Below are positions 20,894-31,026 of a stretch of DNA of 36,919 nt, in pieces. Both the position numbers and the translations under genes were made by a program. Under the pieces are notes generated by a model. The model was given only the letters and a program-made list of their open reading frames with translations, did not search any database and was not told the DNA's origin. Numbering within the stretch: position 1 is the stretch's first letter; each line of letters begins with the position of its first letter. Where the stretch lies: the IMG/VR virus record IMGVR_UViG_3300032240_000500, positions 1 to 36,919 of that record; one strand, given 5' to 3'. The DNA comes from a virus.

Positions 20894-21706
20894 ATGGCAA
20901 CGTTACAGAGTACAGCCTTTAGCGGAACAACTAATACACTGACATTACCTTCAGGTACCACAGCTGAACGTCCAGCAAGTCCAGCTGAAGGCATGATTCG
21001 ATATAACACCACGCTACTAAGAGTAGAAGTTTTCATGAACAACTCTTGGGAAGATGCTGCAGATCCCGTGGCAAATACAAAATGTTATCTTCCTTTGTTT
21101 GGCACAGCAGACGGTGATATCACAGATACAGTATCTAGTGTGGTAGCCAATATCAGCGGTGGAACAAGAAACTATACACAAAGCAGCTATGCAGGTTTTC
21201 AAACTGGCACAGGTGACGCCTACGTTGATATCATGACACCGTTTATTAGAACACTTGATGGCAATCCATTCTGGACTATTGAATTCTGGCTGTATAAAAC
21301 AGGCGGTGTGGGCAGCTCAGCAGAAACTATGGTAGAACTTTGCCATTACACTAGAGGTTTATTATATAGAGCTAACGACAGTGACGGAACTAACAACTAT
21401 TGGAGAGGTAGTTCAATTAACCTAGGTACAACTACCAGCAACCAATGGGTACATCATGCAGTAGTTGGCTATGGCGCTAACATCAAGGTATTTAAAAACG
21501 GCACACAGGTAGCTGACACCATGAATGGTGTAGGTGTATCTAGATTCGCTGATCCTATAACCACAGGCGGTACAGATTATTGTCGCATCGGACGCTCGAA
21601 TCATACCACAGGACAGTATACCAATGGAACATTTAGAAAATTTAAAATCAGTAATAAAGCTAGATATCTAGCAAACTTTACTTCATCTACAGAATATCCC
21701 TTATAA
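20894..21706 (+). CDS. Fibre/adhesin protein with LamG-like lectin domain
   Basis: A 270-residue protein. Residues 15-55 carry the fibre module TLPSGTTAERPASPAEG then MIRYNTTLLRVEVFMNNSW. Residues about 65-270 look like a concanavalin A/LamG-type jelly roll: FWTIEFWLYKTG, a WVHHAVVGYG strand, IKVFKNGTQVADT and a final FRKFKISNKARYLANF, in the order normal for this fold. Such domains bind carbohydrates, so this is a good candidate receptor-binding protein. It starts three bases after the previous stop with AGGAT as ribosome site, so it is translated with the S74 fibre gene. The ligand cannot be predicted from sequence. Confidence 0.82.
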   Translation: MATLQSTAFSGTTNTLTLPSGTTAERPASPAEGMIRYNTTLLRVEVFMNNSWEDAADPVANTKCYLPLFGTADGDITDTVSSVVANISGGTRNYTQSSYAGFQTGTGDAYVDIMTPFIRTLDGNPFWTIEFWLYKTGGVGSSAETMVELCHYTRGLLYRANDSDGTNNYWRGSSINLGTTTSNQWVHHAVVGYGANIKVFKNGTQVADTMNGVGVSRFADPITTGGTDYCRIGRSNHTTGQYTNGTFRKFKISNKARYLANFTSSTEYPL

Positions 21707-21717
21707 GAGGTTAAGAA

Positions 21718-23613
21718 ATGGCAATTTTACAAAGTACGACAATTAGCGGAACAGGATACTTACAACTTCCAGTGGGAAGAACTGCTGATCGTCCTACCGC
21801 TCCTGCCTATACTGTAGTTCAATTTACCTCAACAGGCACATCAAACTGGACAGTTCCAGCCAACGTATATCGTGTGGATGTACTGGTTGTAGGTGGTGGT
21901 GGTGGTGGTGGTGCTTGGGTAGGTGGTGGTGGTGGTGCAGGTGGTGTTGTCTATCGTGAAGGATATGCTGTTACACCTGGACAATCTATCAGTTATACCG
22001 TGGGTGTTGGCGGAACAGGCGAATATAACCCAGGCAGCTATGGTGGTATGCCCCGTGCTACCAACGGCGGCCAGTCTGCATTTGGATCAATTACAGCACT
22101 AGGCGGCGGCTATGGCGGATCATGGAGCTCATTTCCAGCATCTTCGGGTGCAAGCGGTGGTGGCAACGGTTATAATTATGCAGGCGCAGCGGGTACACCA
22201 GGTCAAGGTTTTCCAGGCGGCCAAGGCCGCGGCGATGGTACCAATGGCTACCCAACAGGTGGCGGTGGCGGAGCTGGCGGCCCCGGCGGTTCGTGGCGTA
22301 TTGGTGGCTCAGGTGAAATTACCACAGGTTCTTGGGGACCAAACGGAAAATCAGGAGACGGCGGCCCAGGACTAGCCTATGATATTTCCGGTACACTGAC
22401 ATTCTACGGTGGTGGCGGTGGTGGCGGTATTCACGGAGCCAGTTCAGACGCTCGTCCTGGATTTGGCGGTATGGGCGGTGGCGGTGATGGCAACGGCCCG
22501 TCAACTACATTAGCTTCTTATCAAAACGCTCGTGCTAACACAGGTGGCGGTGGCGGTGGCGGTGGCTACAGCGGTGGATCACCTAGCTATGGTGGCGCAG
22601 GTGGCAGCGGAGTTGTTATTGTACGTTATGCCACAGCAGGCGGCATAAATGCTGAATTAAAACCAGGTGCTGTTAGACTTAACACACAACGAGGTCTTGA
22701 ATATTATGATTCTACAGGCCGTTGGGCAAATCTTTCTGTGCCATTCCACAGCAGAACTATTATCACTACAGGCTATCAGTCAGGCGGATACAAAGATGGT
22801 AGTGCATGGAACAATGTAAACAAAATACAGGCCGCAACAGATGTAACATATAATCTAGGTGACGGTTCTCTTGCAAGATCAATGAACTATCAAAGCGGTG
22901 CTTGCGGACAAAACATTGGTTGGGTATTTGGCGCAGGCAACGGTCATGCTGTTTCCAGTAACTATGTTCAAGGCTTCAACATGCGTACTGAACAGGCCTA
23001 TAATCCTGGAAATATCAATATGGCCAATAACCGAATCAATTCAGGAACTATTTTCCAAGAACACTACTTTGCTTGGACCACAGGAGGCGGTGCAGCAGCG
23101 GTTGAAGAATTTAACATGATGGTTGCTACCAGTCATACTAGTGCTTCTGGGGGCTGGAGTGCTACCAACCAATGGGGCATGAGTCACGAAAACTACGGAA
23201 TATTCTATTGGGAAGAAGATTCTAGAATTTGGCATTTTGCCGCGAGAACAGCAACGTCTACATTTGGCGGCCAGCCAAGTGCCTACCACCAACAGAAATC
23301 AGTTCAAAGTAAATATAGCAACTGTTATGCTGGTAACGAAGGCAGCTACAACGGCGGCAATAACCTACGTAGAAGCAATATGTATACAAGAACAACATCT
23401 GGCACAGTGGCTAAGCCAGTTACCAATAACGGGGAAGAAAACTTTACCATGGGTCAAGATTGGCAATACCTGCTAGGTGAATATAACGGAGCTCAAAACA
23501 ATAATGCTTGGAAATTCTATTATTCCACAGAAACAGGATATAGTGGTGGCTCAGATATGCAGCCAAAAGGGCATGCCGGATCAAGTTCCGGTACCTGCTT
23601 CTGGAGAAATTAA
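21718..23613 (+). CDS. Adhesin-like protein with polyglycine domain and duplicated head domain
   Basis: A 631-residue protein. It starts like its neighbours (MAILQSTTISGTGYLQLP, then RTADRPTAPA). From about residue 31 to 312 a glycine-rich domain follows, opening with WTVPANVYRVDVLVVGGGGG and containing many GGGGGG runs, of a type found in phage adhesins. The interrupted fibre module then resumes (PGAVRLNTQRGLEYYDSTG). Residues about 345-631 form a head domain shared with the next gene: TTGYQSGGYKDGSAWNNVNK, YNLGDGSLARSMNYQS and QPKGHAGSSSGTCFW. In T4-like phages glycine-rich adhesins (T2-type gp38) determine host range; similarity here is by composition only. AAGAGG precedes the ATG. Confidence 0.83.
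   Translation: MAILQSTTISGTGYLQLPVGRTADRPTAPAYTVVQFTSTGTSNWTVPANVYRVDVLVVGGGGGGGAWVGGGGGAGGVVYREGYAVTPGQSISYTVGVGGTGEYNPGSYGGMPRATNGGQSAFGSITALGGGYGGSWSSFPASSGASGGGNGYNYAGAAGTPGQGFPGGQGRGDGTNGYPTGGGGGAGGPGGSWRIGGSGEITTGSWGPNGKSGDGGPGLAYDISGTLTFYGGGGGGGIHGASSDARPGFGGMGGGGDGNGPSTTLASYQNARANTGGGGGGGGYSGGSPSYGGAGGSGVVIVRYATAGGINAELKPGAVRLNTQRGLEYYDSTGRWANLSVPFHSRTIITTGYQSGGYKDGSAWNNVNKIQAATDVTYNLGDGSLARSMNYQSGACGQNIGWVFGAGNGHAVSSNYVQGFNMRTEQAYNPGNINMANNRINSGTIFQEHYFAWTTGGGAAAVEEFNMMVATSHTSASGGWSATNQWGMSHENYGIFYWEEDSRIWHFAARTATSTFGGQPSAYHQQKSVQSKYSNCYAGNEGSYNGGNNLRRSNMYTRTTSGTVAKPVTNNGEENFTMGQDWQYLLGEYNGAQNNNAWKFYYSTETGYSGGSDMQPKGHAGSSSGTCFWRN
21892..21912 (+). repeat. GGT trinucleotide tract in adhesin gene
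   Basis: Seven GGT units in a row encode part of the first polyglycine run, and a second shorter GGT tract follows at about 21922-21936. Changes by whole units would keep the reading frame and alter glycine loop length. Confidence 0.85.
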
Positions 23614-24654
23614 ATGGCAATTCTAGCAAATAACACCACAATCAGCGGTACAGGATTTTTGCAACTTCCTGCAGACAACAGTCAAACCGGTAACACCAAC
23701 GGACAACTAAGATTTAATCCTACTCAAAACAAAATTGAGTGGTACAACTCAGGTACACAAAACGGTTGGACCTACTTTGGTATCCCGTTCCAAGCCAGAG
23801 ATGTTCAGGTCGCAGGTTATTTACATGGCGGCTATGCGGCATCAACAGTTTGGAACAACACCAATAGAATGACCTTTGCTACTGACACTTCAGTTAATCT
23901 AGGTGACGGTACGCAAGAAGCTGGACATAACTATCAAAGTAGTGCATTTAATCTAAGAAGAAACTTTACCTGGGGAGCTGGTGGTTCTCACTGTGCGCCT
24001 GCTAGCAACATCATCTGTTTTGACATGGTTACTGAGCAGGCCGTTACCAGCGGTTATACTCGAAACATGCCTGGTAATACACTTAACACTGGTACAATTC
24101 AGAAAGAACACTATTTTTCTTATCTCAGTCCTTATTCCTATCTAAGTGCGGCTATCTATGAATTCAACCTAACCACTGAAACACTGGGTACTACCTATGG
24201 CACAGGCGGTAATAATCAATGGGGAGCTTGGACTGAAAACTTTGGTATTTTCTATGGCGGTACTGAAAAGATTTTTAATTTTGCGTCAAGAACTGTTTAT
24301 GATCGTAGTGCTAGTACCGCACTAGCTGGAGATCCTTATCAACATAATATGCAGACCCGCCAGGCAACAACTATTGCTGGCCGTGAAGGCAATCCAAGTA
24401 CCAACTGGCGTATCACTAACTATCAAAACAATGCCAGCTACAATGCTATCGGCGCTAAACCTGCATATAGCGGTGAAGAAAATATGTTAAGTGCTAGAGA
24501 TTGGGCATACTGCATGGGTTTCTATAACGGAAGTCACGTTAATACAACCTACAAAGTTCAATTTGCAACTTGGAGTGGATTCGTTGGATCAAGCTCGATG
24601 GAACCAAAAGGCAAAAGTGGTAACAGTTCAGGAACAATGAGCTGGAGGCCTTAA
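23614..24654 (+). CDS. Fibre/adhesin protein sharing the head domain of its neighbour
   Basis: A 346-residue protein beginning directly after the previous stop (TAA then ATG), with GGAG at a good distance. Its N-terminus (ILANNTTISGTGFLQLPADN) and NGQLRFNPTQNKIEWYNSG module match the other fibre genes. The remaining 275 residues are paralogous to the head of the polyglycine protein: AGYLHGGYAASTVWNNTNRM, VNLGDGTQEAGHNYQSSAF, NQWGAWTENFGIFYGG and MEPKGKSGNSSGTMSW. It lacks the glycine domain. The repeated GGY and NFGIFYGG-like lines hint at a propeller or similar repeat fold, also known from other marine phage fibres. Probable receptor-binding or fibre tip protein; ligand unknown. Confidence 0.82.
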   Translation: MAILANNTTISGTGFLQLPADNSQTGNTNGQLRFNPTQNKIEWYNSGTQNGWTYFGIPFQARDVQVAGYLHGGYAASTVWNNTNRMTFATDTSVNLGDGTQEAGHNYQSSAFNLRRNFTWGAGGSHCAPASNIICFDMVTEQAVTSGYTRNMPGNTLNTGTIQKEHYFSYLSPYSYLSAAIYEFNLTTETLGTTYGTGGNNQWGAWTENFGIFYGGTEKIFNFASRTVYDRSASTALAGDPYQHNMQTRQATTIAGREGNPSTNWRITNYQNNASYNAIGAKPAYSGEENMLSARDWAYCMGFYNGSHVNTTYKVQFATWSGFVGSSSMEPKGKSGNSSGTMSWRP

Positions 24655-24686: not shown

Positions 24687-25538
24687 ATGACCGATCGCAG
24701 AATTCAGTACCACTCTGAAAGATATAACAGTGAAATTAACACAGACGTTTCTATGCTTTCAGAGCAAGAACAGAGCCTAGTTAAACTTGCACTAAACAAA
24801 GAATGGACCAACCCAAAGTTTAAATTGAAATGGTTTGTTGGACAAGCACAAATTACCCCGTTCGCTAAATTCCGCCAATGGCTACTGGAAATCAAAACCA
24901 AAGAAGAATCCATCGAAAACATGGAATATGAAATTGCCAAACACGAAGTTGAGTGTGAAAGATTTCAAAGACTACGTGATGAGGCTAGCGATGATTTAGA
25001 TAGAAAACTAGCAGAAATTGAGCTATGGAATAGACAACGTTTAAGCTATACCAGCAAACGTCGAATACAAGATTGGTATCTAGAAAGACAACACTTAATT
25101 GATCTTTGCAACGAATTTATGGCTTCCGAAGAAGCTAAACTGCCAGATGGTTCAGGAAGAACCTACATGGATGTTATGAACACCGCAGAAGAAGATGTCT
25201 ATGAAGCGCAGTATTGGACTAACAGATTGGCCAAGCAAGCGGCCTGCGATATGATTTTCTATGGTAGAATCAACAGCGGAAACATGGATGCCATCTTGAT
25301 GATGAATCCAGAACAGCAAGCAGAGACCATGGCATTGACTGTGAATTTTGCTACCAAGTTGCAAAGCTACCAACAACAACTACAGGTTAGTGCAGATGAT
25401 GCAGTGAGATCGTCACTGGGTATGGATATGAATTCGTTAACTACCCCTAAAGAAGAACCTGCTACACAAACATTATCAGTTGCTGATAATCAAAAGGAGA
25501 TTTTTGATGTATATAATTTACGAAACGATAGCCAGTAA
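24687..25538 (+). CDS. Helical, coiled-coil-rich protein of unknown function
   Basis: A 283-residue, highly charged and mostly helical protein. Residues about 65-150 are probable coiled coil (KEESIENMEYEIAKHEVE and RKLAEIELWNRQRLSY). The C-terminal 40 residues are polar and likely flexible. The N-terminus (RRIQYHSERYNSEI, then VSMLSEQEQSLVKLALNKEW) looks like a conserved phage protein but I cannot name a function. It has its own perfect late promoter and strong AAGGAG site, which marks it for separate regulation. Genes directly after fibre genes in T4-like phages often encode fibre assembly factors, so a chaperone role is possible, but this is inference from position. Confidence 0.75.
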   Translation: MTDRRIQYHSERYNSEINTDVSMLSEQEQSLVKLALNKEWTNPKFKLKWFVGQAQITPFAKFRQWLLEIKTKEESIENMEYEIAKHEVECERFQRLRDEASDDLDRKLAEIELWNRQRLSYTSKRRIQDWYLERQHLIDLCNEFMASEEAKLPDGSGRTYMDVMNTAEEDVYEAQYWTNRLAKQAACDMIFYGRINSGNMDAILMMNPEQQAETMALTVNFATKLQSYQQQLQVSADDAVRSSLGMDMNSLTTPKEEPATQTLSVADNQKEIFDVYNLRNDSQ

Positions 25539-26040
25539 CGATCCAAGGAGATCTCCTGGCATTAGAGACTTTGGCGCATTTTGGCACTATACAGTAGCCG
25601 AAGTTGCACCAGGCACACACGTTGATTGGCTTAAGGGTCAGGAAGTTTCAGAAGCTGTGGCCAAGGTATGGATCCTAGTGACTTCAGTTAACGGTGAAAT
25701 AACTGTGCTGAAATCAAAAGTAGATTCTTATGCAGAAATTATTCTGCCAAGCAGTGGCGGAAATACTGATTACTATAAAGAAACTTATTTCTTAACTGAT
25801 ACGGATAAAACTCTAGCAAAAAATTTCCTAGGAACAGTATTAAAGATAGAAGCTAAAAATAAACTTAGCACAGATGGAATGAAAAATCCTGCTGACACAT
25901 TAACTAGATTAAATCAGGTAATTGACAATACCCAAACGCTAAATGACATGCAGATGGTTATGAAAAATTATTTTGATGTTGATTGCAGTGCTTATACTGT
26001 AGGCCAACCAAAAAATCCAGCATTTACAGTAAACTGGTAA
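25507..26040 (+). CDS. Unknown protein coupled to the coiled-coil gene
   Basis: A 177-residue protein that I do not recognise. The ATG at 25507 is preferred over an in-frame ATG at 25480 because AGGAG at 25496-25500 fits it and the protein then starts MYIIYETIASND, a natural soluble N-terminus. It overlaps the end of the upstream gene by 32 bases in another frame, which implies translational coupling. The N-terminal half is beta-prone (FGAFWHYTVAEVAPGTHVDW, EVSEAVAKVWILVTSVNGEI), and the C-terminal half is helical with a DTLTRLNQVIDNTQTLNDMQ segment. No signal peptide or catalytic motif is evident. It is the last gene before the enzyme cassette. Confidence 0.7.
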   Translation: MYIIYETIASNDPRRSPGIRDFGAFWHYTVAEVAPGTHVDWLKGQEVSEAVAKVWILVTSVNGEITVLKSKVDSYAEIILPSSGGNTDYYKETYFLTDTDKTLAKNFLGTVLKIEAKNKLSTDGMKNPADTLTRLNQVIDNTQTLNDMQMVMKNYFDVDCSAYTVGQPKNPAFTVNW

Positions 26041-26103: not shown

Positions 26104-27780
26104 ATGAGAAAAATATTCAGCGTTCCGTTAAACCCAAAATTAAATCAAGCACAATTTAAAGAATTCTGTGAATTTCTATTTCAATATAAAGATTATATTA
26201 GAGATGTCTACTTCACAAGTCGAATAAAGCCCTTTGTACAAGATGCAATGGGTGATGTTTTTCTTTTAGAAGAATATCACCTTAGTATTATAGAATCTGC
26301 CCTGTACATACAGAATGCACTAGGCATACCTGTTAGTGCTACATTTAACAATATTGAAGTTCCGGCAACACAGCAAAACTTAGATATCTTTATTTCTAAT
26401 TTCAAACCCCTATATGATGCCGGTGTACGAAATGCAACAATTCCTCATACCCATTGGATGGCCACTGGCCAGATCAAACGGGCATTTCCTGAATTGTATG
26501 TAAAAAATACAATCCTAAGAGAAGTACACTCGGCACAAGAAGTAGTAAATCTTGCAGGATATGGATTTGACTATGTTAACCTTGATCGTGATCTAATGCG
26601 AGATAAGGATGCATTACTGGCAATTAAAAAAGCTAAAGCATACATTAAAGAAACCATGGGCAAGGATATTGCCATCAGCCTATTGGCTAACGAAGGCTGT
26701 GTTGGCGGATGCAGCATGATGGTAGAACATTTTCAATTTAACAACAACAGATCAGTTAACAATCCGCAATACTTTAATGATCCAATAAGCCGAATTAGCT
26801 GTAAAAAATGGGAAGTAGATGATCCTGCAACATCACTAAAAACAGCTAACTTTCCACCGTGGCGAGCTGACTGGGATGAGTTTATTGATGAACTGGGCAT
26901 TGACAGTATCAAGATGCACGGCCGCGAGGCAATAAGTCGACTGTACGAAACCATGCAGATTATTAAAAATTATGCAGAAGGCAAAGAAATTTTATTTTCT
27001 GGGTTTGAACAATATCTAGAAGATACGAATCTTGTAGAAAAACCTATTAATATATGGCGTGAAAAAATTCGCAATTGCAAATTTGAATGTTGGGATTGCC
27101 AATACTGCGATAAAATCTACAACAAAAAATCAAACATGCATTACTCCGAGCTAGTTAAACATACTGCCCAAGCAATTGCAGATTCTGGTGTACCCACAGT
27201 TAGGTTAGGTGTTCCTGGACTAACCAGCCCTCGGGTAGAAACATTGTTAAATTCCTTGGCTCAGGGAATCAATACTTACTTAGAAGTAGGAGCAGCAATG
27301 GGCGCAACATTCTGCGCTACAATTAAAAACAATCCCATCCATGCTATTGCTGTTGACAACTGGAAACAAAATATTCAGCCTGTTAGATCTGCAGAACTAG
27401 GTACACTACCAGAAAATTCTGTTCAACAGTTTATTGAAAATGTTAAAAAACACAAGGGTCAAGCGACTGTAGATATTCTAAACGGAGATTTATTCTCAGC
27501 AGATGTTTCTAGATTTTCTACTAATATAGAAATGTTTTTCTATGACGGTCCTCACGACTTTGAAAGTACAAAACGTGCCGTGCTACACTACTATCCTGTG
27601 CTAGCAGATGAATGTATTATCATCTTCGATGATGCAAATTGGAAACCAGTTGTGGAAGGCGCACAGGCAGGCTTACAACAAGTAAATGCAACTATTGTAT
27701 TTGAAAAGATGATGCTTAATTCTTTAGAAAATCCTAACGAGTGGTGGAACGGTCTTTATATTGTGGTGATAAGAAAGTGA
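26104..27780 (+). CDS. U32-like iron-sulphur protein fused to a SAM-dependent methyltransferase
   Basis: A 558-residue two-domain protein. Residues 1 to about 345 resemble the U32 (YhbU/UbiU/RlhA) family: FSVPLNP at the start, VNLDRDLMRDKDALLAIKKA (158-177), ISLLANEGCVGGC (191-203) and IKMHGRE (269-275). Possible [4Fe-4S] ligands are C199, C203, C233 and members of C325/C329/C332/C335. U32 relatives hydroxylate RNA bases or ubiquinone precursors without O2, despite the old peptidase name. Residues about 385-558 look like a class I methyltransferase: YLEVGAAMGATF (392-403), IAVDNW, FFYDGPHDFESTKRAV (478-493) and IIIFDDANW. It lacks an obvious Shine-Dalgarno, starts a six-gene overlapping cassette, and probably modifies one substrate twice or feeds the downstream enzymes. 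Confidence 0.78.
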   Translation: MRKIFSVPLNPKLNQAQFKEFCEFLFQYKDYIRDVYFTSRIKPFVQDAMGDVFLLEEYHLSIIESALYIQNALGIPVSATFNNIEVPATQQNLDIFISNFKPLYDAGVRNATIPHTHWMATGQIKRAFPELYVKNTILREVHSAQEVVNLAGYGFDYVNLDRDLMRDKDALLAIKKAKAYIKETMGKDIAISLLANEGCVGGCSMMVEHFQFNNNRSVNNPQYFNDPISRISCKKWEVDDPATSLKTANFPPWRADWDEFIDELGIDSIKMHGREAISRLYETMQIIKNYAEGKEILFSGFEQYLEDTNLVEKPINIWREKIRNCKFECWDCQYCDKIYNKKSNMHYSELVKHTAQAIADSGVPTVRLGVPGLTSPRVETLLNSLAQGINTYLEVGAAMGATFCATIKNNPIHAIAVDNWKQNIQPVRSAELGTLPENSVQQFIENVKKHKGQATVDILNGDLFSADVSRFSTNIEMFFYDGPHDFESTKRAVLHYYPVLADECIIIFDDANWKPVVEGAQAGLQQVNATIVFEKMMLNSLENPNEWWNGLYIVVIRK

Positions 27781-28379
27781 TAGATAAAGTTTTCAGCGTT
27801 CCAGTATATCAAGATCTTGTTTCAAATAAATCAGCAATAGATCAAGAAATAGCCTTGGCGTTAACAAATTCAGAATTTGCCAATGTATGGCAACCTGATA
27901 ATGATACTGCAAATACCACATTCATACCCGGTAAACAGGCTAACATTCTAGCCAAACATCAATTAAAGGCCACTGTAATTGAAATTGTTAGACATGCCAA
28001 CGCATATCTAGAAGGCACCGGTCAGCCTTACAAGAAAAATTCCGTTAAAATTGATCAATCCTGGCTAAACACCTTTGAGGATAATCAATTAATTGGATTG
28101 CACGAACACGGATATCAGCCAAATACAATCAGCGGTGTTTATTATCATAAGGCTCCACAGAATTGCGGAAGGTTAATTCTTAAAAATCACAATCCATTTG
28201 TAGTGAGTTTTCCGCATCAGTCGCAGGAATTTTTTAACCTAGTAAATATTGAACCAGAAGAAGGACTAGTAGTATTCTTCCCAAGCTGGTTGATGCACAA
28301 AGTAGAACCAAACAAAACCAAAGAGACTCGTGTTTCTTTGTCTTTTAATATTTCTTTTGATTATACATTTTATGAATAG
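27777..28379 (+). CDS. 2-oxoglutarate/Fe(II)-dependent oxygenase
   Basis: A 200-residue protein of the short 2OG-Fe(II) oxygenase family common in T4-like phages. The GTG at 27777 is chosen because it overlaps the previous stop (GTGA) and gives the usual start IDKVFSVPVYQ. An ATG at 27741 lies inside the previous gene. Key features are LIGLHEHGYQPNTISGVYYH with H109 and H111, GRLILKN, and EEGLVVFFPSWLMHKVEPN with H174, then R185 in RVSLSFN. H174 and R185 fit the distal iron ligand and the 2-oxoglutarate-binding arginine; the proximal ligands are H109/H111, and no clear HxD carboxylate is visible. Such enzymes hydroxylate or desaturate small molecules or side chains; the substrate is unknown. 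Confidence 0.88.
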   Translation: MIDKVFSVPVYQDLVSNKSAIDQEIALALTNSEFANVWQPDNDTANTTFIPGKQANILAKHQLKATVIEIVRHANAYLEGTGQPYKKNSVKIDQSWLNTFEDNQLIGLHEHGYQPNTISGVYYHKAPQNCGRLILKNHNPFVVSFPHQSQEFFNLVNIEPEEGLVVFFPSWLMHKVEPNKTKETRVSLSFNISFDYTFYE

Positions 28380-29895
28380 AATACAAAAAATCACTATATT
28401 TGGCGGCGGAACTAGCGGATGGTTAACAGCAGCTTACCTAGCCAATAATGTAAAAATACCTGTTGAGATTACTCTAATTGAAGATACAAGTCTTGGGCCA
28501 ATAGGAGTAGGTGAAGGTACACAACCATTAACAGCACAATTCTTATATCAATGCGGCCTACATCCGCAACAATGGATGAAGCCGAGTAATGCAGCTTTTA
28601 AATTTGGAGTTGAATTAGTAGGTTGGAATGACGAACCTTATTTTGTTGACAACGATGCTATTCAAAGTTCTTTCGTTGCAGAAGGTGTCTATGCAAGCGA
28701 TTATTTTATTAGACGTCCTCATAAAGAATTTACAGATTTTCATCCAGCATACCAACTAGCCAAAGCTAATCTAAGTCCAAAAATGGTAGAACATCTAGAT
28801 GTTAATTTTGGATCAAATCTAGAAGCATTTGGTGCAGTCCATTTTTCAGCATATGAAATTTTAGACGCTCTTAAAAATCTCATAGGAGATAAAATCAAAC
28901 ATGTTGATACTAGAATTAAGAGTGTTGAAAAGGACATGTATGGAATCACAAAACTAATTGATGAATCAGGTACAGCTTACACCTCAGATCTGTTTATAGA
29001 TTGTAGTGGATTTAGTTCTATTCTTTTAGAAAAAACTCTAGGAGTTCCATTCACATCCTACGATAAATGGCTACCAAATGACCGTGCAGTAGTAATGCCT
29101 AAACAGTATACTGACCCAGAAAAAGAATGTTTTCCATATACTCGAGCAACTGCAATGACAGCCGGTTGGAGATTTACAATTCCTATCTACACTCGTATAG
29201 GCAACGGCTATGTTTACAGCAGTAAATTTATCTCTGATGAAGATGCAGAAAAAGAGCTACGTGAAGCAATAGGCGAATATGATGCCCCTGCAAAGTTTTT
29301 AAAAATGAAATGTGGGTACCATAAAGAGATTGCTGTAAAGAATGTAGTAGCAGTAGGACTTAGCGCAGGCTTTGTTGAGCCATTAGAAGCCACAGGTATT
29401 ACATTTACTACAGCCGTAGTTAAATCTATTGCTGACTTGTTAAATTTGAATAAAAATATTTGGAACAATCAGACTAGAGATTTGTTAAATGGCGGTTTCT
29501 ACGAAATGTCTATGGAAATTTTAGCCTTTGTTTGGGCACACTATCATTTTTCAACCAAGGCCGATACTCCATTCTGGCAAGAAATAAGACAACAACAAAT
29601 CAAAGATCTGCCTGAAGACGTACAAACTATTCTTAGTTTTTATTATCCGCAACCTGGACGATTCTTGTTTTTAAGGCCAAGTTCAATGTTCAACAATGCT
29701 CAATGGTTCAGTATGTTGCATGCCGGTGGCGCATATAAAGATATTGAAATTCCTCATAGACCCTATGAAACAGAATATATAAAATATTTTATTGATGTTC
29801 AAAATTATAGAGTCAAACAGGCAAAACTTAATTTTAAAAATCACTATAGATACCTAGACGATTGGTATAACAATAAACTGTTTGGAGAAAAATAA
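28372..29895 (+). CDS. Flavin-dependent halogenase (tryptophan halogenase family)
   Basis: A 507-residue protein of the tryptophan-halogenase family, which uses FADH2, O2 and halide to halogenate electron-rich carbons. ATG at 28372 is chosen over 28330 because the FAD-binding start should be near residue 10. Motifs: GGGTSGW (11-17), the family loop GVGEGTQPLT (45-54), NAAFKFGVEL with K77 aligning with the catalytic lysine of PrnA, W266-R-F-T-I-P271 in place of WxWxIP (second Trp is Phe), YVYSSKF, and GLSAGFVEPLEATGI (329-343) with E339 at the conserved glutamate. The start overlaps the oxygenase stop by eight bases. No flavin reductase is present, so FADH2 must come from the host. A viral halogenase (VirX1 of cyanophage Syn10) is known; substrate and preferred halide here are unknown. 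Confidence 0.9.
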   Translation: MNRIQKITIFGGGTSGWLTAAYLANNVKIPVEITLIEDTSLGPIGVGEGTQPLTAQFLYQCGLHPQQWMKPSNAAFKFGVELVGWNDEPYFVDNDAIQSSFVAEGVYASDYFIRRPHKEFTDFHPAYQLAKANLSPKMVEHLDVNFGSNLEAFGAVHFSAYEILDALKNLIGDKIKHVDTRIKSVEKDMYGITKLIDESGTAYTSDLFIDCSGFSSILLEKTLGVPFTSYDKWLPNDRAVVMPKQYTDPEKECFPYTRATAMTAGWRFTIPIYTRIGNGYVYSSKFISDEDAEKELREAIGEYDAPAKFLKMKCGYHKEIAVKNVVAVGLSAGFVEPLEATGITFTTAVVKSIADLLNLNKNIWNNQTRDLLNGGFYEMSMEILAFVWAHYHFSTKADTPFWQEIRQQQIKDLPEDVQTILSFYYPQPGRFLFLRPSSMFNNAQWFSMLHAGGAYKDIEIPHRPYETEYIKYFIDVQNYRVKQAKLNFKNHYRYLDDWYNNKLFGEK

Positions 29896-30308
29896 TGTTA
29901 GGTGAATTAAATGTAGGCGAGTATACTATATGGACTCAAGAAATCCGTCAAGTTAAAGATCCATATACTGCACGTAAACTTCAGAAAGATAGAAAAAAAT
30001 TAAAAATTTGGATGAATGCTCTATTGGCAAATAGAGATTTAATTGTATTTCACATACATGAAGGTGTAGAAACCATGAGTGTTTTAACAAAAAAACATGG
30101 AGGAGATGACTTAGCCGACGCTCCTATTAGTGCAGAGCAGATTGGCTACGATACATACCTTGTAGTTAATTACATAATGGCCAACGAGTGGCCAACCCTA
30201 AGACCTATAGCGATCCATGTAGACGACATAACTAAATTTATGTCTCGCTCGGGCGGCACAACTGAAATTAGTAATAAAATAAATTGGTTTGGTCATGGAC
30301 ACAATTGA
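29895..30308 (+). CDS. Unknown protein coupled to the halogenase
   Basis: A 137-residue protein I do not recognise. Its ATG shares a base with the halogenase stop (TAATG), so it is translationally coupled. The N-terminal third is a charged helix (DPYTARKLQKDRKKLKIWMN), followed by a strand and His-containing segment (LIVFHIHEGVETMSVLTKKH). The C-terminal part has PTLRPIAIHVDDITKFMSRS. It has no signal peptide, membrane helix or clear catalytic motif, although several His residues could bind metal. Tight coupling to an enzyme suggests an accessory or partner role in the same pathway; this is inference from arrangement. Confidence 0.72.
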   Translation: MLGELNVGEYTIWTQEIRQVKDPYTARKLQKDRKKLKIWMNALLANRDLIVFHIHEGVETMSVLTKKHGGDDLADAPISAEQIGYDTYLVVNYIMANEWPTLRPIAIHVDDITKFMSRSGGTTEISNKINWFGHGHN

Positions 30309-31026
30309 ATTCTTCACATCGGCACCCGGCCTATCGGAAATGTTTCCTATCATCTCTGCAAGCGAATGCAGAGCAGACTGGATGACAGCCGCTAAAAATG
30401 ACTATGTTCAAAATAAAGAACGTTTTTCAAAATCTAGAAGCACACATTTATTTCAATGTCCTGGAATTTTTGATCTAAACAATCACGGATTTATTGTTCC
30501 TCTATGGCACGATCTAATTATTAAAACAGACAGCAAGGAACGATTTACATGGACTATACCTTCCGGTGCATTAAATTCCTATAGAGGAAAAGATGTAGTA
30601 GGAACACACAAACCAGGACTTGACAAATTTATACCTAAACGTCCATGGAGTCTAAATCAAGTGGTAAAATTAGATACCCCTTGGAACATTGTTGCTCCAA
30701 AAGGAGTAAAATTTTTAATTATACCCTTGGCTTACCCCGATGATTTTACCTTTGAAAGTTGCATAGGTATATTGGATCCAGCTATCAGCACAGAAGTAAA
30801 CATACAATTATATTGGAATGTAATGCAAGGAGAAACACTGCTCAAAGCCGGTACGCCTCTTTGCCAACTAATACCGTTAACAGAAAAAAAGTATGAGCTG
30901 ATAGTTAGAGAAATGACAGCTAGTGATAAGTTCTGGCTTGAAAAACGTAACTTGTTTATGAGCATGTTCTTTCGAGGAAATAGAAATATCATAAAAGAAA
31001 TGTACCATAAGCATTTTAAAAAATGA
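30295..31026 (+). CDS. Conserved marine-phage protein of unknown function
   Basis: A 243-residue protein starting MDTIEFFTSAPGLSEMFPI. The second of two close ATGs (30295) is chosen because it gives the family-like start; 30289 is also possible. The pattern HLFQCPGIFDLNNHGFIVPL, then APKGVKFLIIPLAYP and GTPLCQLIPL, is one I recognise as a widespread hypothetical family in marine phages, often near oxygenases and other tailoring enzymes, though without an established activity. The body looks beta-rich with a short helical C-terminus. It overlaps the previous gene by 14 bases. The conserved CPGIFD and GTPLCQLIP lines suggest a defined active or binding site rather than a structural role; unproven. 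Confidence 0.78.
   Translation: MDTIEFFTSAPGLSEMFPIISASECRADWMTAAKNDYVQNKERFSKSRSTHLFQCPGIFDLNNHGFIVPLWHDLIIKTDSKERFTWTIPSGALNSYRGKDVVGTHKPGLDKFIPKRPWSLNQVVKLDTPWNIVAPKGVKFLIIPLAYPDDFTFESCIGILDPAISTEVNIQLYWNVMQGETLLKAGTPLCQLIPLTEKKYELIVREMTASDKFWLEKRNLFMSMFFRGNRNIIKEMYHKHFKK

Follow-up and report, generated by a model that had tools for sequence, protein, structure and literature searches.

The locus raises the question of what a virus does with a single polypeptide in which a U32-related barrel is joined to a SAM-dependent methyltransferase. The window, by which we mean the whole 36,919-base virus record that was analysed, has structural genes upstream of an ORF at 26104-27780 on the + strand; according to the ORF list and its translation this ORF is intact, with an ATG at 26104, a stop at 27780 and a product of 558 aa. 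The protein lines quoted for it in a first-pass annotation, namely ISLLANEGCVGGC, IKMHGRE, DGPHDF and IIIFDDANW, are all found in the translation, and the reading of the gene as a two-domain fusion is borne out, with a U32-related barrel in residues 1-345 and a class I SAM methyltransferase in residues 359-558 of one intact ORF. The features of the gene are the following:

26104..27780, + strand: whole fusion gene, 558 aa, matching PHROG_1458 at E 8.5e-166
26104..27138, + strand: U32-type TIM barrel, residues 1-345, with seven cysteines (model pLDDT 88.1, pTM 0.88; top match 5d88)
26698..26712, + strand: C199-X3-C203, at the end of barrel strand 7, invariant
26800..26802, + strand: C233, in the loop before strand 8 (block mean pLDDT 59), invariant
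26911..26925, + strand: K270-x-x-G273-R274 in strand 8, counterpart of the U32 K-I-E-G-R line, aligned to the KIEGR of UbiU
27076..27108, + strand: C325-X3-C329-X2-C332-X2-C335, after the barrel, invariant
27178..27777, + strand: SAM-dependent methyltransferase, residues 359-558, with the lines EVGAAMG, DGPHD and FDDAN (PF13578; fold Z 15-17.5)

Distribution in cyanophages

PHROG_1458 is recorded as a family of unknown function. Relatives of the fusion protein were recovered from 123 of 50,697 phage records, every one of them a cyanophage (Synechococcus, Prochlorococcus or other); 121 cover at least 80% of the query, and all 123 lie below 60% identity. The gene is called a "hypothetical protein" in all five annotated isolates and bears the label GC 354 (T4-LIKE GC 354) in four of them, while a search of plasmid sequences recovered no relative. 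These genes were sequenced long ago, but the fusion itself has apparently escaped earlier description: we found none in literature, surveyed mostly through listings, on the fusion, on cyanophage halogenases and tail fibres, on tail-fibre modification and on halogenases accompanied by SapC.

Structure and affinities of the N-terminal barrel

A model of the full-length protein (pLDDT 82, pTM 0.57) displays eight alternating strands and helices in the N-terminal domain. As methyltransferase matches filled the list when this model was searched against the PDB, and thereby hid the barrel, the barrel was modelled alone from 69 sequences, which again gave eight alternating strands and helices with a pLDDT of 88.1 and a pTM of 0.88. 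Foldseek searches of the PDB with this model returned 5d88, the U32 protein Mk0906, as the first match (E 7.2e-7, TM 0.70 by target), and VIA-align aligned the same structure with a Z of 16.8 and an rmsd of 3.2 over 225 residues, the runner-up being a methylenetetrahydrofolate reductase chain with a Z of 13.2. The first-pass annotation had named a model devoid of a U32 TIM barrel as the outcome that would speak against it; what was obtained is a confidently modelled barrel with 5d88 in first place.

Profile comparisons point to the same relationship. Against a U32 reference alignment made up of UbiU, UbiV, RlhA, TrhP and 14 Campylobacterota U32 proteins, HMM-HMM comparison of the barrel gave a probability of 68% in the first comparison, just 6.7% with an almost purely phage alignment (phage sequences and two outside rows) and 95.0% (E 3.7e-8) once distant bacterial relatives were added. 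When the alignment was forced to full length it extended to the KIEGR line of UbiU. As a blind background, the profile used in the 68% comparison was run against 58 families clustered from ORFs at these loci; the two self families ranked first, followed by a truncated U32 protein at 17.6%, and the other 55 lay at 2.7% or below. Two Chloroflexota proteins (L307 and L308) match the phage barrel family with E-values of 4.6e-14 and 1.3e-11 and also match PF01136 with 57.7 and 42.4 bits (cut-off 22.4), and at the level of sequence they bridge the phage barrel to U32. Direct searches were silent: the barrel has no PF01136 match up to E 1 and no direct match to any Pfam or NCBIfam model, and neither phmmer nor a 17-row barrel profile drew a U32 chain from the PDB sequences. 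TrhP and UbiU are themselves without a PDB sequence match at E 0.01, so searches of this kind could not have revealed a U32 kinship. A PF01136 search of 40 Chloroflexota genomes gave zero matches.

Within the barrel, K270, G273 and R274 of the line corresponding to K-I-E-G-R are invariant in 147 of 147 fused proteins; in a wider set of 27 divergent relatives the K and R are kept and G273 gives way to S in four. Taken together, the agreement of both structural aligners on 5d88, the HMM-HMM match and the bridge proteins support the reading of the N-terminal domain as a U32-type barrel. The U32-like reading thus stands as regards fold and profile kinship, but the canonical cysteine motif and a Pfam match are both missing.

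Conserved cysteines

Most U32 families are typified by a four-cysteine motif, CX6CX15CX3/4C (PMC6747719), and pattern comparison shows it to be absent from the window protein. The family pattern is instead a CX3C, a lone cysteine about 30 residues on (X29 in the window protein) and a CX3-4CX2CX2C after the barrel, the last four cysteines being spaced as CX4CX2CX2C in the nine archaeal members examined. Given this non-canonical arrangement we class the protein as belonging to a seven-cysteine U32-related branch and not as a U32 member. All 80 IMG/VR relatives keep each of the seven positions (C199, C203, C233, C325, C329, C332 and C335), and the remaining cysteines, C22, C404 and C504, vary among them. 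The seven are likewise kept in all 147 fused proteins (146 distinct ones and the query) and in 27 of 27 divergent relatives from phages, Campylobacterota, Chloroflexota and archaea, free-standing ones included. The seven candidate cluster cysteines singled out by the first-pass annotation therefore do stand apart from the others.

The barrel would very probably bind one or two [4Fe-4S] clusters. The number of cysteines, three and then four, suggests either two sites, of which one would be a three-cysteine cluster whose iron is left open, or a single shared cluster with cysteines to spare; a split into C199/C203/C233 and C325/C329/C332/C335 is as likely as one cluster that recruits just one of the final four. 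A zinc site would also fit four cysteines so closely spaced, and we considered a U32-type scaffold that is no hydroxylase, but a protease-like or electron-transfer module whose CX3CX2CX2C would bind zinc or a ferredoxin-like cluster, with the methyltransferase as the only catalytic half. Peptidase was the first label given to U32 proteins, most of which have an unknown chemistry (PMC6747719), and this is in keeping with such a scaffold. Against it, conservation is stronger in the barrel (dN 0.11-0.16, versus 0.14-0.34 for the C-terminal domain; dS was saturated or undefined, hence no dN/dS is given), and the barrel also occurs without a methyltransferase, which indicates that it has a function of its own; we regard the non-hydroxylase scaffold as improbable.

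A radical-SAM enzyme was also considered, given that C325-X3-C329-X2-C332 is literally a CX3CX2C and that there is a very weak NCBIfam match of QueE type (residues 330-397, E 0.074, 12.7 bits against a cut-off of 260). However, no radical-SAM Pfam model matches at E 1 or better, the motif follows the barrel instead of lying inside it and is succeeded by a Rossmann methyltransferase, and its spacing is not kept in the archaeal members. We reject this candidate as extremely improbable.

The methyltransferase domain and the integrity of the fusion

The C-terminal domain matches PF13578 (Methyltransf_24) with 43.4 bits against a cut-off of 26.3, and 32 of 34 diverse members match the same model at E 0.01. 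Its closest folds are O-methyltransferases, TomG (Z 17.5), a Streptomyces COMT (17.4), SafC (16.9) and TrmR (16.4), which lie within about one Z unit of each other. The SAM-binding loop E-x-G-x-x-x-G is strongly conserved, with G396 and G400 present in 147 of 147 proteins and E394 in 139 (D in the other 8), and the acidic residues D481, D509 and D510 of the DG and DDAN lines are each found in 146 of 147. The first-pass assignment of this half as a SAM methyltransferase is hence well supported by both the Pfam match and the COMT/SafC/TomG-like fold. It would transfer a methyl group from SAM, most likely to an oxygen, which we consider somewhat more probable than not.

These affinities bear on what the acceptor could be. 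The closest folds, COMT, TomG and MycF, act on small molecules or sugars, and one member matches TylF, as would be expected if the gene belonged to a cassette that makes or decorates a halogenated, hydroxylated and methylated metabolite or a surface sugar. On the other hand, a sequence-profile search of the PDB ranks YrrM/TrmR first; this enzyme is also among the best folds and would suit a one-chain equivalent of TrhP and TrmR, with a base of tRNA (host or phage), rRNA or phage DNA as the target of hydroxylation and O-methylation. The likeness is weak, however, as TrmR is matched at E 0.0028 and unrelated chains appear already at 0.0051. The best characterised U32 proteins act on RNA, with TrhP1/2 and TrmR making mo5U34 (PMC6599085, PMC10516636), and in another Synechococcus phage a tRNA-modification chemistry that uses prephenate has been turned to DNA (PMC12783734). 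Both alternatives are taken up again below in the light of the gene neighbourhood.

Among 241 loci that reach the end of the N-terminal domain (a figure in which some contigs, found by two scans, count twice), 228 run on in the same frame for at least 100 aa. Together with the invariance of the cysteines, this in-frame continuation argues, on sequence grounds, that neither the fusion nor the cysteine pattern is a product of chance or of assembly.

Of the 13 loci that do not continue, 10 run off the end of the DNA by their coordinates, leaving L212, L206 and L086. At L212 (957-2690) the methyltransferase half lies in a different frame from the barrel, reflecting a frame break or a sequencing error. 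L206 (4123-6044), on a 111-kb viral contig, encodes a free-standing seven-cysteine barrel of 370 aa, directly behind a DUF6445 protein (PF20043) and among repeated genes of one kind. L086 is a bacterial contig with a barrel to which no methyltransferase is fused.

Gene neighbourhood in cyanophages

The genes from 26104 to 31026 of the window share a strand, with overlaps or very short gaps between them. The neighbours are:

20894..24654, + strand: three structural ORFs from a single family, which their position in annotated relatives marks as tail-fibre-like, found upstream in 109/130 loci
24687..25538, + strand: upstream partner gene, PHROG_1409, in the position of GC 353, 119/130 loci
25504..26040, + strand: second upstream partner gene, 114/130 loci
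27741..28379, + strand: 2OG-Fe(II) oxygenase (PF13759, 76.1 bits), whose start, as listed, falls inside the last part of the fusion gene
28372..29895, + strand: flavin-dependent tryptophan halogenase (PF04820, 314 bits, by Pfam)
29895..31026, + strand: two further downstream cassette genes (a 139-aa family and PHROG_7084), from the ORF list and PHROG

Conservation of this arrangement was assessed in 130 non-redundant loci (129 and the window), counting ATG starts alone, so that genes which overlap are in part missed, the 2OG oxygenase of the window among them. The region corresponding to the upstream structural ORFs is annotated as tail fiber or sericin-like in the annotated relatives. One of the two partner genes stands immediately upstream in 96 of the 111 loci with 2.5 kb of upstream sequence. 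Downstream, the tryptophan halogenase is the first recognised gene in 44 of the 104 loci with 4 kb of sequence, and within those 4 kb a halogenase is found in 57, the 2OG-Fe(II) oxygenase family in 61 and PHROG_7084 in 53. None of the five annotated isolates has a halogenase annotated beside the fusion gene, and the link to the halogenase accordingly holds for part of the family.

The neighbourhood offers little to either of the alternatives introduced above. No RNA- or DNA-modification gene accompanies the tail-fibre, halogenase and oxygenase genes, and no tRNA is found in the 36,919 bases of the window, which, with the weak likeness to TrmR, leaves action on a nucleic acid rather unlikely. 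As for a metabolite or surface sugar, halogenases as a rule act on small molecules, but Pfam and PHROG scans of the window's neighbours recognised no biosynthetic core enzyme and the fusion gene keeps its place by the tail-fibre genes; we consider such a substrate unlikely too. Such a position points to one of the viruses' own molecules as the target of a chemical decoration.

Some individual loci depart from the common layout or add to it. In S-ShM2 the fusion gene lies away from GC 351-353. At L057 (15130-16686) a subtilisin-like protease, recognised by eye from GHGTHSAGIV, is encoded downstream, and its family recurs in 27 of the 130 loci. Halogenases usually carry a WxWxIP line; that of the window (28372-29895) reads GWRFTIP, and its specificity may therefore differ. 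VirX1 is another halogenase of cyanophage origin. Ever since prnA, the tryptophan halogenase of cyanophages, came to notice, it has lacked an accepted role (PMC2984593).

Relatives outside phages

A genome scan identified three loci (L084, L085 and L086). L084 and L085, filed as Euryarchaeota and Dehalococcoidia, carry the fusion together with cyanophage tail genes, and, being flanked by the same neighbours as in phages, are likely wrongly binned phage contigs. L086, on a Campylobacteraceae contig of genome G001, encodes a free-standing barrel of 353 aa; on one side of it ends a repeat protein that looks RTX-like by eye, and on the other lie the type I secretion genes for an outer membrane protein, a C39-ABC transporter and HlyD. 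An ordinary U32 gene is present in this genome as well, so the role of TrhP does not fall to the seven-cysteine protein there, a point that also counts against the nucleic-acid reading.

Further relatives are sparse. They were found in 3 of 397 Campylobacterota genomes, in 3 of 104 genomes of one family (one of the three already known), in 8 of 301 Chloroflexota genomes (one being a phage contig) and in 15 of 292 genomes of the archaeal phylum of G002 (one a phage contig and one marginal, with a stop). Among 44 genomes of the family of L086 there was no barrel relative beyond L086, and a search of 347 genomes from G416's class yielded nothing beyond two known relatives. In G399 the barrel shares one stretch with a tryptophan halogenase and with export genes, among them those of a SecA-like and an M50/HlyD protein; the cluster may serve to modify a surface protein and export it. 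HlyD/TolC-like exporters and two kinase-like proteins are also seen there (L294, 2489-9331, with L297, Campylobacterota). G416 has two barrel copies beside SapC. At L295 (662-3954) two tandem proteins of about 545 aa, next to SapC, carry additional N-terminal sequence ahead of the seven-cysteine barrel. Near the relatives in Dehalococcoidia, G768 and G781, neither secretion nor halogenase genes were observed.

In Chloroflexota, three of six loci have a PF00891 O-methyltransferase directly beside the free-standing relative on the same strand. The barrel and a methyltransferase are thus paired twice over, fused in phages and adjacent in Chloroflexota. Proteins with a TAT-type N-terminus that resemble reductive dehalogenases are encoded near L313, L316 and L318 (and L314, L315 and L317), a likeness confirmed by Pfam for L314.

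Proposed function

The chemistry of U32 proteins is known for few members. By analogy with TrhP, RlhA and UbiUV, the barrel might hydroxylate a C-H bond without O2, perhaps with prephenate, a proposal to which we give slightly less than an even chance. An O2-independent hydroxylase is not obviously needed here, since the hosts are oxygenic and O2-dependent oxygenases are encoded next door. If it is one, the two domains could act in turn on one substrate, converting C-H to C-OH and then to C-OCH3, as TrhP and then TrmR do on tRNA. Given that the same two kinds of domain are joined as in TrhP/TrmR, and that the pairing recurs in three of six Chloroflexota loci, this sequence is the simplest reading, but it too remains tentative, and somewhat more so than the hydroxylation as such. 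Taken jointly, from Fe-S binding to sequential modification and irrespective of the substrate, a phage-encoded bifunctional tailoring enzyme has not quite an even chance of being correct.

For the substrate we prefer a virion protein, most likely a tail-fibre protein from the adjoining genes; the halogenase and the 2OG oxygenases may decorate it too. The lasting link to tail-fibre genes and the export genes near some bacterial relatives favour this choice, which we nonetheless regard as doubtful. More speculatively, and with still lower confidence, the T4-like cyanophage cassette as a whole could be a tail-fibre modification system in which the fusion protein adds a hydroxyl to tail fibres and caps it as a methyl ether, while the halogenase and 2OG-Fe(II) oxygenases halogenate and hydroxylate further side chains; those bacterial relatives that stand free and adjoin type I secretion genes together with halogenase or SapC genes would likewise treat secreted surface proteins. 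If true, the chemistry of tail-fibre adhesins would go beyond the twenty amino acids. Since a prnA-type halogenase often stands directly behind the fusion gene, tail fibres would also be a new place to look for its role. A gene of 123 sequenced phage records that is usually annotated as hypothetical gains a concrete and testable function, and a seven-cysteine branch of U32-type barrels is defined in phages, bacteria and archaea.

Comparison with known systems

The gene recorded in cyanophages as PHROG_1458 or T4-LIKE GC 354, of unknown or hypothetical function, is the same gene as that described here. Its domains are themselves of known kinds and, as far as we could find, their fusion in phages is new. 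The best fold match of the barrel is Mk0906 (5d88), yet the identity is 8-10% and the match concerns model residues 1-280 alone. Similarly, the C-terminal domain resembles Methyltransf_24, COMT and TylF/MycF enzymes in Pfam match and fold and keeps their DG..(D) and DDAN lines, but is about 10-19% identical to the solved ones. UbiU and UbiV combine a U32 barrel and a cysteine-bound [4Fe-4S] cluster with hydroxylation without O2 (PMC6747719). The E. coli UbiU-UbiV and RlhA share this barrel with the phage N-terminal domain, but their motifs are CX6CX16CX38C and CXnCX12CX3C (PMC6747719), with neither a CX3CX2CX2C nor a methyltransferase.

The closest parallel is the yrrM-yrrN-yrrO operon of B. 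subtilis, which encodes TrmR (YrrM) and TrhP1/TrhP2 (YrrO/YrrN); the U32 proteins TrhP1/TrhP2 are needed for ho5U34, which the COMT-like TrmR methylates to mo5U34 in tRNA (PMC6599085). There as here, a U32 barrel and a COMT-like SAM methyltransferase are genetically linked. TrhP and TrmR are, however, separate proteins with a tRNA substrate and a canonical U32 half, whereas the phage protein is a single chain of the seven-cysteine branch encoded at a tail-fibre locus. TrhP and TrmR act in turn on one substrate (PMC6599085), and the pairing seen in the phage protein is therefore one already known to work in sequence in tRNA modification.
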